Shown: positions 5,491-33,758 of the stretch, in pieces | How positions within the stretch are numbered: position 1 is the first letter of the stretch | How the letters are laid out: each line of letters opens with the position of its first letter | Origin: Cyclobacteriaceae bacterium | GTDB taxonomy: Bacteria; Bacteroidota; Bacteroidia; Cytophagales; Cyclobacteriaceae | DNA length: 35,528 nucleotides | Assembly: GCA_020832375.1 (NCBI GenBank) | Contig: JAFIEW010000031.1 | Span: 1-35,528, forward strand | Reading direction: 5' to 3' | Position numbers and translations under genes: made by a program | The notes under the pieces: model-generated | Told to the model about the DNA's origin: nothing | Databases searched by the model: none | Seen by the model: the letters and a program-made list of their open reading frames with translations, nothing else

Positions 5491-6339
5491 TTAGGGTAAA
5501 TTTCGTCGGATTGCTTCAATTTTTTCTTGGGTCAGCCCTGTATATCTTATGATCTTCTCTACAGGCTCATTTTCCAAGAGTATGTTTTTGGCTACTTCTT
5601 TTCTACCATCCTCATTAGCTGTATCCAATGAATTTTTCAAATCGCGATAGTATTTGAGACTGTCCTCATAAGACTGGATTTGTTCGGGCGTAAATTTTGC
5701 TATTTCCCCAGTCTCAAAAAGCTTCTCAAAAATTCGCTCTCTAAATCGGTCGGGTATCCGATCTAGGCGATTAAGGTTGCGCAATACGTACAGCCATTTA
5801 TCAAACCTTGTTTCCAGTTCATCCAACGATTTATTGAACTTGGGCATCTCAAGGTAAATGAATGTGAGCTTATCGTAGAATATTTTTTTACTTTCTATGT
5901 CCGATAATTTTACGTCATAGCGGTATTTCTCAGCTTCTTCTTTATTGTCGTCAAAAACAAAATCTAAAATGGCAACAGTATAAACAGCTTTCAATTCAAA
6001 ATTCCAGTCTGCTTTTTTGGCTTGTTCTCTTATAGGAAATGTAGAATAGTACAGTGTGCGATCTTTAAAAAAGTTCTGCTTCGCTTTTTGTAACTCAACT
6101 ATAAACTTCTCACCTTTTTCATTTTCACAATACAAATCAAAAATAGCCTTTTGATCAAGGTCTTTCGCACCTAACTGTTCACTTTTCAAATAATTGATTT
6201 CTTTGACTACACCCTCCTCTTTTTCTAAAAGGACGTTGAGGAAATCAAGGAGTAGCTCTTTGTTCGGCTCTTCACCGAAAAGTCTTCTGAAGCCAAAGTC
6301 AGTAAATGGATTAACATACTTTTCTTTGAAATCAGTCAT
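5491..6339 (-). CDS. Rpn-type PD-(D/E)XK nuclease (transposase-like, PDDEXK_2 family)
   Basis: A 282-residue protein that opens with the family hallmark NPFTDFGFRRLFG, followed by KELLLDFLNVLL. The nuclease core shows D68 in AIFDLYC and E82-x-Q84 in IVELQK, the aspartate and (E/Q)xK-like pair of this PD-(D/E)XK group. The C-terminus ends in a helix-turn-helix-like segment (KIIRYTGLTQEKIEAIRRN), also usual for the family. Relatives include Rpn proteins of enterobacteria, which cut DNA and promote RecA-independent recombination, and many Bacteroidota copies annotated as putative transposases. No terminal inverted repeats are visible around it, so it is probably a resident gene rather than an active element. 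It sits alone between two metabolic genes. Target and role are unknown. Confidence 0.85.
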   Translation of the reverse strand: MTDFKEKYVNPFTDFGFRRLFGEEPNKELLLDFLNVLLEKEEGVVKEINYLKSEQLGAKDLDQKAIFDLYCENEKGEKFIVELQKAKQNFFKDRTLYYSTFPIREQAKKADWNFELKAVYTVAILDFVFDDNKEEAEKYRYDVKLSDIESKKIFYDKLTFIYLEMPKFNKSLDELETRFDKWLYVLRNLNRLDRIPDRFRERIFEKLFETGEIAKFTPEQIQSYEDSLKYYRDLKNSLDTANEDGRKEVAKNILLENEPVEKIIRYTGLTQEKIEAIRRNLP

Positions 6340-7643: not shown

Positions 7644-8666
7644 ATGGCTCAAACCCCCGAGATGGTGCTTCGCGATATGGAAGCAGGTAAATATGCCCCT
7701 TTCTACTTTTTACAAGGTGAAGAACCCTTCTATATCGACAAAATTGCCGACTATGTGGAAGAACACGCGCTCGATGAGGCAAGCAAGGGCTTCAACCAAA
7801 TGATCATGTACGGTAAAGACGTTGAGCTGGTAGATATTCTCAACAATGCAAAGCGCTACCCTATGATGAGTGAACGACAGGTGGTAATCGTGAAGGAGGC
7901 CCAAGATATACCTCGCTTCAATACCGATGAGAGCCGTCAGATGTTGCTTTCATATCTTGAAAATATGGTGGAAACCACCATTTTAGTGTTTGCTCATAAG
8001 TACAAAAAGATTGATGGTAAGACCAAGCTCGCAAAAGCCATTGATAAGCACGGCATTTTAGTGACTACCAAAAAACTTTATGAAAATCAGATAGCCAAGT
8101 GGATTGATGATGAGGTGAAAGCTAAGGGTCATACCATACATCCGAAGGCAGCTCAAATGATGGTAGAGTCCATCGGTGCCAACTTAGAGCGACTAAGTAG
8201 TGAGTTGGATAAGTTGTATGTCAACTTTGCTGAGCCTACCCAAATTACCGATGACTTCGTACAGAAGTATGTGGGCATTAGTAAAGAATACAATGCTTTC
8301 GAACTGACCAAAGCGATTGGGATGCGCGACGTGCTCAAGGCTCAGAAGATCATTAAATATTTTGCTGCCGATCCTAAGGGAAACCCGATTATACCCATAA
8401 TCGCTGCGCTGTTCAATTATTTCAGTAAAATACTATTGATACATAGCTTGGGCACCAAAAATAAGGATGTAGTAGCTGCTAAAATCAAAATTCATCCATT
8501 CTTTGCTCAAGAATACATCATTGCAGCTCAAAGCTACCCACCCAATAAGGTGGTCGCTTGCATCAGGGAAATCCGAAATGCTGATTTACACTCTAAAGGC
8601 ATTGAAAGTGGAAGTGTCGACGATATGGAGATTTTAAAACTATTGGTGTTCAAGTTGATGCATTAG
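7644..8666 (+). CDS. holA: DNA polymerase III subunit delta
   Basis: A 340-residue protein of normal length for the delta subunit, the wrench of the clamp loader that opens the beta sliding clamp during replication. The N-terminus carries the family pattern FYFLQGEEPFYIDKI, a degenerate P-loop region that does not bind ATP, and the middle has the MMSERQVVIVKEAQDI strand-helix typical of the AAA+-like fold. The C-terminal helical domain includes LERLSSELDKL and the stretch from NPIIPIIAALFNYFSKIL, corresponding to the clamp-loader collar. Start ATG 7644 is supported by the promoter just upstream. The gene is single, and nothing is encoded for about 1 kb after it. Confidence 0.9.
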   Translation: MAQTPEMVLRDMEAGKYAPFYFLQGEEPFYIDKIADYVEEHALDEASKGFNQMIMYGKDVELVDILNNAKRYPMMSERQVVIVKEAQDIPRFNTDESRQMLLSYLENMVETTILVFAHKYKKIDGKTKLAKAIDKHGILVTTKKLYENQIAKWIDDEVKAKGHTIHPKAAQMMVESIGANLERLSSELDKLYVNFAEPTQITDDFVQKYVGISKEYNAFELTKAIGMRDVLKAQKIIKYFAADPKGNPIIPIIAALFNYFSKILLIHSLGTKNKDVVAAKIKIHPFFAQEYIIAAQSYPPNKVVACIREIRNADLHSKGIESGSVDDMEILKLLVFKLMH

Positions 8667-23454: not shown

Positions 23455-23544
23455 TTAAACTTGAACAGCCATCAATTTTTCAAGCCATTTGTTTAGAATG
23501 GGTCTGAATCGTCTCAATAGATAGAGGTGGTTACCATTTTTCAT
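23455..23544 (-). pseudogene. Coding-like scrap, possible gene remnant
   Basis: On the minus strand a 29-codon frame begins at ATG 23544 (MKNGNHLYLLRRFRP) and ends at 23455, and stays open 11 codons further upstream before a stop. The residue composition looks coding (RFRPILNKWLEKL), but the frame is too short for a domain and no homologue is recognised. It lies in the 176-base gap between the SDR gene and ypdA. It could be the C-terminal end of a lost gene, for instance a hydrolase, or chance. Confidence 0.25.
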
Positions 23545-23623: not shown

Positions 23624-24601
23624 ATGAATAATGAAGTTTTAGATGTAGTTATTATCGGAGCGGGGCCTTGTGGACTTGCTGCGGCAATTGATGCTCAAAA
23701 AGCGAATTTAAAATATACTATTTTAGAAAAAGGCAATATCGTTGAATCGATTAGGAGATATCCTGTAAACATGAAGTTTTTTAGTACCTCTGAAATGATT
23801 GAGATAGGAGGAATGCCCTTTGTGTCGCAAGAGATTCGACCAAGTAGGATAGAGGCACTTAAGTATTATCAGAAGGTGACTGAACGCTTCAATCTGTCTA
23901 TCAGTAGATATACCGAGGTCAAAGAAATAAAGGGAGAAGACGGTGATTTTGAAATAATTACTTCTAAGGGTAGGTTTTATTCAAAAAAGGTCATCATTGC
24001 CATTGGCTATTATGATATTCCGAGAAAGCTGGGTGTAGCGGGCGAAGATTTACCTCATGTGAGTAATTATTATACAGAGGCGTATGCCTATCACGGAATG
24101 AAGGTAGTCGTAGTTGGTGGTGCTAACTCTGCCATTGAAACTGCACTTGACCTTTATCGGAATGGGGTGGAAGTAACTTTGGTACATCAATATGCAAGTT
24201 TGGATAAAACGGCGAAATATTGGATTGTGCCAGACCTTGAAAATAGAATCAATAAAGGAGAAGTATCAGCCTATTTTGAACATCGGGTTTCCGAGATTAA
24301 GGATGGTAGTGTGGTTTTGAGTTCGCTTAAGGGAGGTGAAAGTAAAGAGATAGCTGCCGATCAAGTATTCTTGATGGTAGGCTATCATCCTGATGAACAG
24401 TTTTTGAAAAAAGTAGGCATTCAGCTTAATGGTGAAATGATGATACCTGAAGCAAAGCCAGATACCTATGAGAGTAATATAAAAGGGATTTATCTCGCCG
24501 GATCAGTATTAGGAGGGGAGGAAACGAGCAAGATCTTTATTGAGAATGGTAAGGAGCATGGGAAAAGCATCATTCAGGATGTTGTATCGAATCAAGCATA
24601 A
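23624..24601 (+). CDS. ypdA: YpdA-family bacillithiol disulfide reductase
   Basis: A 325-residue flavoprotein of the small thioredoxin-reductase-like type. Residues 11-17 (IGAGPCG) bind FAD and contain C16, the cysteine next to the FAD loop characteristic of YpdA. The NADPH fold carries VVVGGANSAIE, and the end of the chain has the FAD-site IYLAGSVLGGEETSKIFIENG. A CxxC active site, as in thioredoxin reductase, is absent, again as in YpdA. YpdA reduces bacillithiol disulfide with NADPH in the cytoplasm to restore the low-molecular-weight thiol pool. Many Bacteroidota make bacillithiol; the bsh genes are not in this window. The gene ends at a terminator shared with the convergent lipoprotein gene. 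Confidence 0.88.
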   Translation: MNNEVLDVVIIGAGPCGLAAAIDAQKANLKYTILEKGNIVESIRRYPVNMKFFSTSEMIEIGGMPFVSQEIRPSRIEALKYYQKVTERFNLSISRYTEVKEIKGEDGDFEIITSKGRFYSKKVIIAIGYYDIPRKLGVAGEDLPHVSNYYTEAYAYHGMKVVVVGGANSAIETALDLYRNGVEVTLVHQYASLDKTAKYWIVPDLENRINKGEVSAYFEHRVSEIKDGSVVLSSLKGGESKEIAADQVFLMVGYHPDEQFLKKVGIQLNGEMMIPEAKPDTYESNIKGIYLAGSVLGGEETSKIFIENGKEHGKSIIQDVVSNQA

Positions 24602-30584: not shown

Positions 30585-30851
30585 TGAATAATTTTGTGTA
30601 AAGTACAATAAAATCACGCAACCGTTTGTGAAATGAGAAAAGGTAACGGAATAGTTTTAATTGATTAAAATAATAGCTAGAAGTAGCGTATCCTTATCTG
30701 CCTCTTTCCTAGCCTAGATCTTTCTCACATTTATTTCAGAAAATAGTATTCAGGAGTTATTGCTTCTGAGAAGGGTCTTTCTTCCCTTAAAGATGAAAAC
30801 TTATTCTTTTATAATCTCTTTGTTCTGATATTAACAAAGGCTAGAGTTAAT

Positions 30852-30879
30852 AAAAATAGGGGCTCAAGCCCCTATTTTT
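30852..30879. terminator. Bidirectional terminator after the ferritin gene
   Basis: Perfect arms AAAAATAGGGG (30852-30862) and CCCCTATTTTT (30869-30879), loop CTCAAG. It lies 23 bases beyond the ferritin stop codon. Confidence 0.9.
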
Positions 30880-30901
30880 ATTGCGAGAATAGCATGTGGT
30901 T

Positions 30902-31426
30902 TTAACCATCATATTCTATTTCAAGAATTCTTTCTTCGAACATAGCTAAAGCAAGTTTGTCTTCACCTAGAATTTCAAATAACTCCAGGGCTTGTCGTGC
31001 CACATACTCTTCTTCTATTTGCTCTTTCACAAACCAGCGTAAGAATTCTTCGGTCTGGATGTCATCCGCTTTTCTACATACTCTAACTAGATCGTGAATA
31101 GATTCTGTCACAGATACTTCCATGTCTAAGGCTTTTTCAAAAACCTCTCTTAAGGTTGAAAATTCAAATTCAGACTCATCAACACCAGGTGTTTTTGCCT
31201 CTGATTCCATATCATTAAGATATTTGAAAATCTTCAATTGATGCTTTCTTTCTTCTTTTGATTGCTTATAAAAAAACTCAGATGAGTTATCATAGCCTCT
31301 TACATGGCACCAGGCAGCTAATGCTAAATAATGATTAGAAGACTGAGCTTCAATTTTCACTTGTTTATTTAGAGCACTTACGACTTCATCTTTTAAAATG
31401 GCGTGTCTTCTCAATAAATCTTTCAT
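30902..31426 (-). CDS. ftnA: Ferritin
   Basis: A 174-residue non-haem ferritin; 24 subunits store iron as a mineral in the cytoplasm. All ferroxidase residues keep the E. coli FtnA spacing with a constant offset of nine: E26, Y33, E59, H62, E103, Q136 and E139. The helix motifs QSSNHYLALAAWC and EERKHQLKIF are typical. The N-terminus is a little longer than usual (MKDLLRRHAILKDE). It stands alone, ending in a strong bidirectional hairpin. Upstream, the spacer holds AATCTAA (31473-31479), a half-site like the palindrome in front of the cysteine-rich gene at 32685. This is suggestive of shared iron control but could be chance in such AT-rich DNA. Confidence 0.93.
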   Translation of the reverse strand: MKDLLRRHAILKDEVVSALNKQVKIEAQSSNHYLALAAWCHVRGYDNSSEFFYKQSKEERKHQLKIFKYLNDMESEAKTPGVDESEFEFSTLREVFEKALDMEVSVTESIHDLVRVCRKADDIQTEEFLRWFVKEQIEEEYVARQALELFEILGEDKLALAMFEERILEIEYDG

Positions 31427-31827
31427 AGTATTGCGTGTTTTATATTTCTAATTTATAGGTATTCAAACAGCTAATCTAATTAAATAGTTTATGTATTTGA
31501 CCATTTAAGTTGATAATAAGCCGTTTTATTGCTAATTTGGAATTAATCTTAAGCTATTTTAAAAGAAATGAAAAGCGTATTTTAATGAAGGTTTTAGAGG
31601 GGGTGTAATGTGATAGATGATAAAATGTTCATCTGCCGATAAATACCTCATTTATGATAATTTACAAGGATTTAGCAAATTCACTGGTTGTAAAATAATA
31701 TTGACTCTCTTGAAAAAGACTACGGGTTCAGTATGGTTGAAAAATTAGAAGCTAAGTGATTATCTTTTATTTATAGTTAACTCGATTTGTTCAAATTAAA
31801 AGTAAATTTTCAATTCAGACAATATTA
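31427..31827. other. AT-rich spacer upstream of ferritin, no gene
   Basis: About 400 bases with no credible frame. The part nearest the ferritin start should contain its promoter, but no exact TAnnTTTG is seen. Confidence 0.4.
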
Positions 31828-32030
31828 ATTATGCTTATCCGCATAATTATATAAATATACGCTTTGAAAAGACACAAATGCTTAGGATGTGACACTCTTT
31901 CAGGGCTGAGAGCGTGCTTTATATTTTTCACAGGGCTGCATCCTGTGCTATGCTATATTGCGCCTTCAGCGCTTTTAAAAAATAACAGTTCCTTTGAAAC
32001 TTAAGGTGTAAACATGCGGATATGCATAAT
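31828..32030. mobile_element. Candidate MITE-like element with 17-base terminal inverted repeats
   Basis: Left end ATTATGCTTATCCGCAT (31828-31844) is the reverse complement, 16 of 17 bases, of ATGCGGATATGCATAAT (32014-32030). Between them lie two GC-richer hairpins: CACAGG/CCTGTG (31929-31934 and 31942-31947) and GCGC/GCGC around CTTCA (31960-31972), with CAGGGCTG appearing twice (near 31912 and at 31931). The left repeat is itself a hairpin (TAATTATGC and GCATAATTA). No gene is inside. The layout fits a non-autonomous element or a compound REP-type repeat of Bacteroidota. No target-site duplication is obvious. Confidence 0.5.
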
Positions 32031-32053
32031 ATTAAAAGTGTGGAAAGCACAAA

Positions 32054-32082
32054 AGAAAAACATCAACCTAAAATGATGTTTT
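32054..32082 (-). terminator. Terminator of the small two-gene unit
   Basis: Arms AAAACATCA (32057-32065) and TGATGTTTT (32074-32082), 8-base loop. On the minus strand it runs into a T-rich tract (TTTTTCTTTT). It lies 29 bases beyond the stop of the gene at 32111. Confidence 0.75.
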
Positions 32083-32110
32083 AGAGATTCAACACCTTCA
32101 TTATTTAGTT

Positions 32111-32449
32111 TCACAGCTGTCTTGATGTGATTTTTTGAATGGTGGTATTAAGGTCAAGCATTACAAAGCTTCCAGATAAAAGTTCTTTCAATTCTAATAT
32201 TTCCCTAAGGTTTAAAATTAAAAATCGTTGGCTCATAGGCAGATAAAAAACTTCAATATCAGGAGTATCTACTGATAGCATATGAATAATATCTACTTCA
32301 TTTATTTTATTCCTTAGCTTAATTAATTCGCATATTTTTAACTCTAAAGACGTGTTTTGAAAATTAAGAATAAACTGCTCTCTTTTTTCACAAAGATTTA
32401 AACCTGCATTTTGGGTCATGAAAACTTCTTTGGTATCCTTATGGTTCAT
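32111..32449 (-). CDS. DUF6686-like small protein
   Basis: A 112-residue soluble protein, or about 102 if translation begins at the second Met (32419). The pattern is a cysteine followed by a beta strand ending in NFQNTSLEL, then helices, then FLILNLREILELKELLSG. This recalls DUF6686, a small Bacteroidota family whose members usually begin with a CxxC before a strand and FGN turn. Here only one cysteine (C20) stands in that place, so a metal site there would be incomplete. The identification is by pattern and not secure. It is encoded 80 bases downstream of the cysteine-rich gene, on the same strand, with no terminator between and a terminator after it, so the two form one unit. Confidence 0.6.
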   Translation of the reverse strand: MNHKDTKEVFMTQNAGLNLCEKREQFILNFQNTSLELKICELIKLRNKINEVDIIHMLSVDTPDIEVFYLPMSQRFLILNLREILELKELLSGSFVMLDLNTTIQKITSRQL

Positions 32450-32529
32450 TTGCGTAGTCTTAATTGGATTCTTCTTTAAATAATATTGATGACAAAATAA
32501 GGGCTCTATCTTAGCAGAGGGCTAATGAG

Positions 32530-32685
32530 TTAAAAGTTAGGGCATCTTTTACATGATTTACCCTTTTTTAAATACTTTTCACAGCAACTACTTTTTTTAG
32601 AAACTGCACCTTTACTTTTCTTTCTGTTTAAAAGAAAGTCCAGTTTAGCATCTTCGCTTCTTTTTATACAGCTTGTACTACTCAT
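32530..32685 (-). CDS. 51-residue cysteine-rich protein
   Basis: A small gene on the minus strand from ATG 32685 to TAA 32530. The first half is basic and helical (KRSEDAKLDFLLNRKKSK); the second half holds the cysteines: C34-C35 in SSCCEKYLKKGK, then C45-x-x-C48 in SCKRCPNF at the very end, with C6 near the start. A CC-x-KY-x-x-x-GK-x-CK-x-CP tail is a pattern I recall from short Bacteroidota proteins, and it could bind a metal ion or an Fe-S cluster. The gene is supported by a consensus promoter 39 bases upstream, a palindromic operator between promoter and start, and a co-directed neighbour. Function unknown; a metal-linked role is inferred from the cysteines, the operator and the nearby ferritin. 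Confidence 0.7.
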   Translation of the reverse strand: MSSTSCIKRSEDAKLDFLLNRKKSKGAVSKKSSCCEKYLKKGKSCKRCPNF

Positions 32686-32701
32686 AAAATTAAAATTTTT
32701 A

Positions 32702-32718
32702 TTTAGATTAAATCTAAA
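32702..32718. promoter_or_regulatory. Palindromic operator over the transcription start
   Basis: TTTAGATT-A-AATCTAAA is a perfect 8-base inverted repeat with one central base. It begins 6 bases downstream of the -7 element, so it covers the predicted start site, where a bound repressor would block transcription. The TTAG...CTAA outline resembles operators of DtxR/IdeR/MntR-type metal repressors; that assignment is inference. Confidence 0.6.
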
Positions 32719-32723
32719 CGACG

Positions 32724-32753
32724 CAAAATTAATATTAGTTTCCCAAAAAGCAA
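32724..32753 (-). promoter_or_regulatory. Consensus promoter of the cysteine-rich/DUF6686-like unit
   Basis: On the minus strand TTG (32753-32751), exactly 19 bases, then TAATTTTG (32731-32724): a full match to the Bacteroidota consensus. Start expected near 32717, inside the palindrome. Confidence 0.75.
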
Positions 32754-32921
32754 TCTATTGCACTTTTTTCTTCTCAATATTATTAAACATCTTTAAGACA
32801 GCATCAGCCTGCATTCGATTCTATATGATAATGTTAGGCAATTATGCTTTTTTGGAGGTTTCTGAGAAAATAGAACCTTATTAACATAACTTGATGATTC
32901 AAATTTTATCGAGGATTGACA

Positions 32922-32962
32922 CAGTAAAAAATAAAAAAGCCAACCTTATTTAAAGCTGGCTT
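32922..32962 (-). terminator. Minus-strand terminator of the 54-residue gene
   Basis: Arms AAGCCAAC (32937-32944) and GCTGGCTT (32955-32962), one wobble pair. On the minus strand it is followed by TTTTTTATTTTTT. It is 94 bases past the stop at 33056. Confidence 0.65.
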
Positions 32963-33055
32963 ACAAAATCAATACTTCCTTGACTTTCACCGATTATATT
33001 GTTAGAATTAAGAAACAATTAGACCTCTTCAGCTTAAAATTAGCTAAATAGCTAG

Positions 33056-33220
33056 TTATTTTTTAGTCTTCAATCTTCCAGCTAGTCCCGCTGGCATTTC
33101 TGCGAAAGAAAATAAATCCTCTCCAAGATTTTTAATTTTCTGTGCTTTTAATTCTGCTTTTTGTGTGGCCTCCTCACTTTTAGACCTTAAAGCCCTCACT
33201 AAGTTTTTTAATAGGTTCAT
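33056..33220 (-). CDS. 54-residue basic helical protein, unknown function
   Basis: A small minus-strand frame from ATG 33220 to TAA 33056. Residues 1-30 are an amphipathic lysine/alanine/glutamate-rich helix (VRALRSKSEEATQKAELKAQ), followed by a short hydrophobic segment (GEDLFSFAEMPAGLAGRL) and a basic end (KTKK). No cysteines, signal or known motif. The residue mix and the minus-strand terminator downstream favour a real gene over chance, but no promoter matching the consensus is visible in front of it. I do not recognise a family. Confidence 0.5.
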   Translation of the reverse strand: MNLLKNLVRALRSKSEEATQKAELKAQKIKNLGEDLFSFAEMPAGLAGRLKTKK

Positions 33221-33503
33221 TTTAGCGTATTTAAATCGTTTGTTTGTATTAAATTGAATACATAAATCCTGCCAAAATGTTTTATTGATTGAGAATTTAT
33301 TGTATGATTTATGATCTCTAGGAGAAAATATATTTCTACAACTATGGAGTGTAGTTCTTATGATTAAATGGAGTAGCTGAATAGTTAAGATAGCGGTGAT
33401 CTTACCAATTAGTATATTTTAGCGTGTGATCTATTTCAAAGCATAATCACTTTTCGGATAGGGTTTTTGTGTAGAGATTTTTTTAACTATGAGAAATATA
33501 AAA

Positions 33504-33543
33504 AAGTGAACCTAACCATCTGTTGATGTTAGTTAGTTTTTTA
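33504..33543. terminator. Bidirectional hairpin in the spacer
   Basis: CTAA-C-CATC pairs with GATG-TTAG, one bulged base, loop TGTT, with an A run to the left (about 33500) and a T run on the right (33537-33542). Confidence 0.55.
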
Positions 33544-33629
33544 TGGAATTTCATGTGTTAAGTATTGACTATATCCTGATTGAGTATTGTTGAATTTTTA
33601 TGGATGAGACTTAATATTTTGGTTTAAAA

Positions 33630-33658
33630 TTTGCAACAGATTATTTTTCATATCTTTA
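33630..33658 (+). promoter_or_regulatory. Near-consensus promoter for the CHAT gene
   Basis: TTTG (33630-33633), 17 bases, then TATCTTTA (33651-33658), one base off TAnnTTTG. The leader would be about 95 bases. Confidence 0.45.
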
Positions 33659-33758
33659 GATCAGTATTTTAGGTTTTTCCGAGTCTAATTTTTTTATCTG
33701 TAGATAATTAAAAAGAAATTTCTTTTGAAGATTTTGTTTGTGATAGAAGTAAAAGTGT

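Follow-up and report, generated by a model that had tools for sequence, protein, structure and literature searches.

Organization of the locus

The window, as we call the whole stretch of 35,528 nt analysed here, is one entire contig (C161) of a draft genome of 4.1 Mb that comprises 215 contigs and is 99.99% complete. Its minus strand carries a gene for a cysteine-rich protein ending in CCEKYLKKGKSCKRCPNF, hereafter the microprotein, with a DUF6686-like gene starting 80 nt beyond it and a ferritin gene starting 684 nt past the latter (Table 1). Read on the minus strand, the promoter consists of TTG (32753-32751), 19 nt and TAATTTTG (32731-32724), which is followed by 5 nt, the palindrome TTTAGATTTAATCTAAA, 16 nt and the microprotein ATG; sigma-70 promoter scans are ill suited to Bacteroidota. 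The 51-residue ORF, together with the promoter and palindrome before it and the DUF6686-like gene and terminator-like hairpin after it, was recovered at the place given in the preliminary description. The promoter, called "perfect" there, does contain TTG-19-TAATTTTG, but the -33 element reads ATTG, short of the full consensus TTTG.

Table 1. Features of the microprotein locus (window coordinates)
Feature	Position	Strand	Evidence
Ferritin, 174 aa, recurring neighbour	30902..31426	-	ORF list, Pfam, neighbourhood counts
Imperfect Fur-like box, 2 mismatches, upstream of ferritin	31536..31552	-	Pattern scan
T-rich-tailed hairpin, probably terminating the two-gene unit	32059..32080	-	Position 3' of the DUF6686-like gene
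DUF6686-like protein, 112 aa, second gene of the unit	32111..32449	-	Weak Pfam match
Cysteine-rich microprotein, 51 aa, tail CC-x9-CxxCP, ATG start	32530..32685	-	ORF list, homologues, pN/pS
Operator, perfect palindrome TTTAGATTTAATCTAAA, Fur-box-like	32702..32718	-	Conservation and Riemerella anatipestifer Fur box
Promoter, Bacteroidota-type, TTG-N19-TAATTTTG	32724..32753	-	Read from the sequence
Terminator-like hairpin upstream of the unit	32937..32962	-	Terminator scan (1 in the stretch, 0.8 expected)

The hairpin downstream of the DUF6686-like gene was found with a pattern composed once it had already been seen; the terminator scan did not report it, we think because its stem has two G-C pairs only. 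Since this hairpin and a gap of 684 nt lie between them, the ferritin gene and the microprotein unit are probably separate transcripts in the window. On the other side, the upstream hairpin stands between the unit and the minus-strand frame that comes before it; a lysine-rich frame of 54 aa at 33056-33220 (-), with no Pfam family above cut-off, runs towards it. An Rfam search of 30800-33700 gave no match. Elsewhere in the window, 5491-6339 (-) holds a gene for a PD-(D/E)XK nuclease family transposase.

A conserved gene family and its neighbours

Frames sharing the microprotein tail were seen in other genera in a search of 59 relatives, and a profile built from 12 sequences matched, at E ≤0.1, 39 of 395 phylum genomes and 49 of 196 family genomes, the weakest of these matches including frames with stops. 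With stricter limits the counts were 22 of 395 for the phylum (E ≤1e-5) and 42 of 196 for the family (E ≤2.2e-5), the window's genome being among the latter. The named loci that carry the gene belong mostly to Cytophagales and other Bacteroidota. Residues C34, C35, C45, C48, P49, G42, K37, K41 and K46 are invariant in the 12 sequences. From 15 residues before CC through the protein end, 16 close pairs (picked by eye, some of them not independent) gave a pooled pN of 0.058 and pS of 0.558, a ratio of 0.10, which indicates that the 51-residue frame encodes a real protein under purifying selection. Pfam holds no family for the window microprotein or for the 12 members, and neither Pfam nor NCBIfam has a family dedicated to this conserved gene. 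A PDB sequence search with the family profile returned nothing up to E 10, and an AlphaFold model of the microprotein was discarded as too poor (pLDDT 63). A homologue-like tail, extended by a long lysine-rich stretch and not preceded by a box, was also seen from position 8001 of locus L056, which comes from the MAG Candidatus Desulfobia pelagia, by name outside the phylum. In a literature search that most subscription papers lay beyond, we found no published description of the microprotein family and no paper on DUF6686, TIGR03950 or the peptide KKCCKKY; for small cysteine-rich proteins associated with ferritin and FeoB in Bacteroidetes it returned only one paper, which by its abstract concerns a Yersinia effector.

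The assignment of the partner gene starts from a weak match, as the window protein scores 21.9 bits against DUF6686 (PF20391), under the Pfam gathering cut-off of 23.9; with E ≤1 allowed, 7 of 9 orthologues are matched, the best of them at 1e-6. Both genes occur together in 31 of the 196 family genomes, against 12.6 expected (hypergeometric 3e-11, kinship being ignored), and in 26 of these 31 the DUF6686 gene is directly downstream, with gaps of -6 to 81 nt. In three family genomes a DUF6686 copy lies about 1.1 kb upstream of the microprotein instead, eleven carry the microprotein but lack that DUF6686, and the microprotein is missing, at the limit applied, from 28 of the 59 genomes with DUF6686. 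Among DUF6686 matches of at least 104 bits, 26 of 27 directly follow the microprotein gene; this limit was set after the list was seen, and the profile, made from microprotein-adjacent copies, is biased towards ranking these highest. Three DUF6686-like paralogues surround a single microprotein/ferritin cluster in L057 (7545-9674). The structure model of the DUF6686 protein (pLDDT 88.6) has as its best PDB match a cyanobacterial protein of unknown function (Z 7.2) and also matches PUR-alpha (Z 6.8-7.0, rmsd 2.7-3.7 over 93-99 residues), but Z values below 8 are rated middling by the search tool and these matches bear no weight; the best Foldseek match has an E-value of 0.25.

Taking every distinct frame that is shorter than 130 aa and carries CC-x7-12-CxxCP in the collected loci gave a set of 65 loci, L085 being counted among them although it looks unrelated. 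The DUF6686 gene is directly downstream of the microprotein in 24 of the 65, ferritin is present in 28 and feoB lies upstream in 14, all of these counts being lower bounds because many loci span only about 3 kb. Every one of the 24 loci with DUF6686 directly downstream has ferritin on the same strand. The order feoA, feoB, microprotein, DUF6686, ferritin is found in several genomes, and 10 loci, the window included, pair DUF6686 with ferritin and show no feoB in the flanks covered. Two further loci (L113, L055) read DUF6686, ferritin, microprotein, the DUF6686 match of L055 being weak (E 2e-5), and in L076 (opposite strand) and L077 ferritin adjoins the microprotein and DUF6686 was not detected. 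No ferritin is present in the flanks covered of 37 of the 65 loci (mostly about 1.5 kb per side), and L050, L053, L056 and L058 show no ferritin, DUF6686 or feoB despite nearly 8 kb per side. In L010 and L011 the DNA between feoB and the microprotein was read as ending like GRKIFNLVRGTDQPGCEKC, which we take to resemble FeoB-associated cysteine-rich proteins. Searches of the window's genome found neither the Fer2_BFD domain of bacterioferritin-associated ferredoxin, Bfd, nor FeoB: a full FeoB query gave GTPase-domain matches only, of at most 24.4 bits, and FeoB_N only generic GTPase-domain matches. Because a genome in which FeoB and Bfd were not found keeps microprotein, DUF6686 and ferritin, ferritin is favoured over FeoB as the partner.

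A Fur-box-like operator on the microprotein promoter

The palindrome TTTAGATTTAATCTAAA matches TTTAGA-N5-TCTAAA exactly, as do only two other sites in the genome of 4.1 Mb, both of them outside the window. When the 350 nt before the CC motif were searched in each of the 65 loci, a box with at most two mismatches from this pattern was present in 45, against about 4 of 65 in mononucleotide shuffles, and absent at this threshold from 20; the commonest letters of the box across loci are TATTTAGAATTATTCTAAATAA. The core of the -7 element of Bacteroidota promoters is TTTG. This tetranucleotide stands 2-11 nt before the box in 22 of the 45 box-bearing loci, compared with 9% at random positions, and in L014 and L016 it was read downstream of the box, which would place the box within the promoter. 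In the part available to us, the study of R. anatipestifer (PMC5609570), the only one that our search for Bacteroidota Fur-box transcriptomics found, describes -7 and -33 promoter elements, predicts the Fur box ATTTAGAATTATTCTAAAT and reports that Fur bound four promoters in EMSA. The operator consensus of the microprotein loci equals this predicted box; the window box has three mismatches to the 19-bp consensus, yet it is a perfect 17-bp palindrome. Taken together, these comparisons make a conserved Fur-box-like operator on the microprotein promoter well supported, with Fur as its presumed ligand.

The same-strand ferritin genes have a box with at most two mismatches upstream in 18 of 27 loci, against 25 of 540 shuffles. 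Four of these boxes (L008, L112, L114, L115) were dropped, as they lie inside the DUF6686 coding sequence, and several of the 14 that remain come from close relatives. In L044 and L047 the ferritin box sits just upstream of a TTTG-N18-TACTTTG promoter, an activator position; this arrangement would fit iron-dependent activation of ferritin together with repression of the microprotein.

We only infer Fur as the regulator, because the genome carries two Fur-family genes, on C117 (101.8 bits) and C104 (44.3 bits), plus a gene for a DtxR-type regulator. Imperfect boxes in the window mean little alone, since 9 sites with at most two mismatches were counted against 6.25 expected, and genome-wide the one-mismatch pattern was not enriched (36 sites against 35 in the reversed control). 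The 19-bp pattern gave 16 sites, against 7 in the reversed control. Box-like sites in the genome precede genes for glutamyl-tRNA reductase, a Peripla_BP_2 binding protein, two TonB-dependent receptors and a cytochrome-c-like protein. Another precedes what we presume to be the gene for succinate dehydrogenase cytochrome b, although it has no Pfam match at E 1e-5. In L121 (G000:C209:453-510) two box-like sites stand in tandem, and the gene for a TonB-dependent receptor starts 48 nt after the start of the nearer one. Among the 14 loci of the 19-bp pattern that were examined, the sites of L123, L128 and L131 fall inside long frames; other sites lie before a glycosidase gene (L124), before a gene that is presumably mraZ-like (L127), or have no near gene. 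Within the window, the one-mismatch box TTTAGAATGGGTCTGAA (23492-23508) lies 115 nt before a gene for a Pyr_redox_3 flavoprotein (23624-24601, +), a possible reductase partner of the microprotein, although this box may be there by chance.

Tail likeness, proposed role and comparison with known systems

The microprotein tail weakly resembles the C-terminus of siderophore-iron reductases. The last 21-43 positions of TIGR03950 (siderophore ferric iron reductase) match 10 of the 12 members, with E-values from 5.9e-5 to 0.11 for nine of the ten, and 13 of the 14 members of a second set (best E 0.0007), three members being common to both sets. TIGR03951 (FhuF) matches one of the 12 (E 0.083). None of ten shuffles derived from the first ten members with the cysteines kept in position matches TIGR03950 or TIGR03951, and two of them match other models (E 0.11 and 0.28). 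As the TIGR03950 scores of 12-23 bits are far under the family cut-off of 137.9, this is a likeness and not membership. The Pfam model FhuF_C (PF11575) matched none of the 12 members and, at E 0.001, none of 148 phylum genomes, this genome included. An Fe-S tail is a plausible reading of the microprotein sequence; the likeness is possibly due to convergence, and the four cysteines could bind zinc instead.

The preliminary description had pointed to an iron- or metal-responsive unit whose protein tail would bind metal or an Fe-S cluster, and had named, as its test, conservation next to DUF6686 and iron genes. The microprotein/DUF6686/ferritin cluster does recur, with feoAB in a subset, and the two results named there as counting against the gene did not occur, the cysteine pattern being found in the 65-locus set and pN/pS being 0.10. 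Its iron idea appears largely right, judging from the iron-gene cluster and from an operator family that equals the published Fur box, and we regard an iron link of the microprotein family as well supported by these comparisons of sequence.

The account that we tentatively prefer, at somewhat under an even chance, is that a Fur-repressed, FhuF-tail-like Fe-S microprotein and its DUF6686 partner release ferritin iron upon starvation, in a Bfd-like but unrelated manner. When iron is replete, Fe-loaded Fur would occupy the palindrome over the transcription start and keep the two-gene operon off; a drop in iron would let both the microprotein and DUF6686 be produced. The four tail cysteines would coordinate a [2Fe-2S] cluster as the FhuF C-terminal tail does, and the basic surface of the microprotein would bind a partner with an acidic surface, for which the neighbouring ferritin is the likeliest choice. 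Electrons donated into ferritin would then let ferric iron exit as Fe(II), a role parallel to that of Bfd without kinship. The comparisons show that the protein is real, that its operator is conserved, that it lies in an operon and near ferritin, and that its tail has a weak likeness to the reductases; Fur binding, the cluster, ferritin as the electron acceptor and the role of DUF6686 are the parts that we infer. Against this account weigh the loci that lack ferritin or the box, TIGR03950 scores far under the cut-off and no match to FhuF_C, the poor structure model, the probably separate ferritin transcript of the window and the DtxR-type regulator. We hold as more doubtful the wider proposal that Bacteroidota free ferritin iron by means of a free-standing FhuF-type [2Fe-2S] tail of about 50 residues plus a DUF6686 adaptor; such a system would be the counterpart of Bfd but independent of it, and Fur would control it and ferritin in opposite directions.

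The same Fur-repressed, FhuF-tail-like microprotein might instead serve as a general ferredoxin of iron starvation, acting on ferric siderophores, haem degradation or Fe-S repair, with ferritin merely a regulatory neighbour. This would agree with the many homologues that are preceded by a box of their own and whose covered flanks contain no ferritin, with the siderophore reductase as the closest profile to the microprotein, and with the gene 66 nt downstream of it in L054, which we take to be TonB-dependent-receptor-like. The constant presence of ferritin in the 24 loci with DUF6686 directly downstream, and its adjacency in L076 and L077, where DUF6686 was not detected, speak the other way, and we consider this alternative rather unlikely. 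Slightly less probable still is a zinc- or RNA-binding regulator, in which a basic Cys4 zinc knuckle and DUF6686 would bind nucleic acid and tune iron genes post-transcriptionally: the microprotein is very lysine-rich and has the Cys4 set, and the DUF6686 model matches PUR-alpha, but that match is middling, Foldseek gives nothing better than E 0.25, and the spacing CC-x8-10-CxxC, together with CCxxY, agrees with the tail of siderophore reductases.

A FeoC-like accessory protein that aids FeoB in ferrous iron uptake would account for feoB upstream in 14 of 65 loci. We judge it improbable, given that the genome keeps the unit though FeoB was not found and that 10 loci combine DUF6686 and ferritin without feoB in the flanks covered. 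That the locus makes no protein at all, the palindrome and leader forming a small RNA or the frame being there by chance, we regard as very nearly negligible: the frame is short and lacks a Pfam family, but its pN/pS is 0.10, its tail is conserved across classes and 30800-33700 has no Rfam match. Release of iron from ferritin is the best single mechanism, though unproven. To our knowledge, iron recovery from ferritin in bacteria without Bfd is poorly known; a microprotein with a Fur-type operator and an Fe-S-type tail, sharing an operon with a recurrent partner beside ferritin, would be a named candidate for this step in a large phylum, and may show a reductase tail serving as a whole protein.

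With the R. anatipestifer Fur regulon the microprotein loci have in common the 19-bp palindrome near the start codons of iron genes, whereas the published table, as far as it was available, names no such microprotein, though hypothetical proteins are among its entries. The microprotein is small and sometimes adjoins feoB, as do FeoC and the FeoB-associated cysteine-rich proteins, but it differs from them in persisting in a genome where FeoB was not found. FhuF, as described in the part available of PMC8068687, binds a [2Fe-2S] cluster through C-C-x10-C-x2-C and is Fur-controlled; the C-terminus of the Escherichia coli protein is RRTCCQRYRLPDVQQCGDCTLK. The microprotein resembles FhuF, TIGR03950 and TIGR03951 in a CC-xx-[YF]...CxxC pattern that lies close to or at the C-terminus and whose two halves are 8-10 residues apart (10 in FhuF, 8-10 in the microprotein family and 9 in the window protein), and in Fur control, which for the microprotein is a prediction. 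It differs from these in being, at 51 aa, mostly tail, without a palm or substrate domain, and in its CxxCP, its lysine-rich linker, the x9 spacing in the window and the lack of a match to FhuF_C. As for Bfd, this protein has four cysteines, as does the microprotein tail, at a different spacing. The microprotein gives no match to Fer2_BFD (PF04324), comes with DUF6686 and neighbours a ferritin and not a haem bacterioferritin. In the part available of PMC7760384, bacterioferritin receives electrons from the [2Fe-2S] cluster of Bfd, and iron becomes trapped when Bfd is lost, as happens in a P. aeruginosa strain deleted for bfd; like Bfd, the microprotein is small, genetically tied to an iron-storage protein and expected to act under iron starvation.
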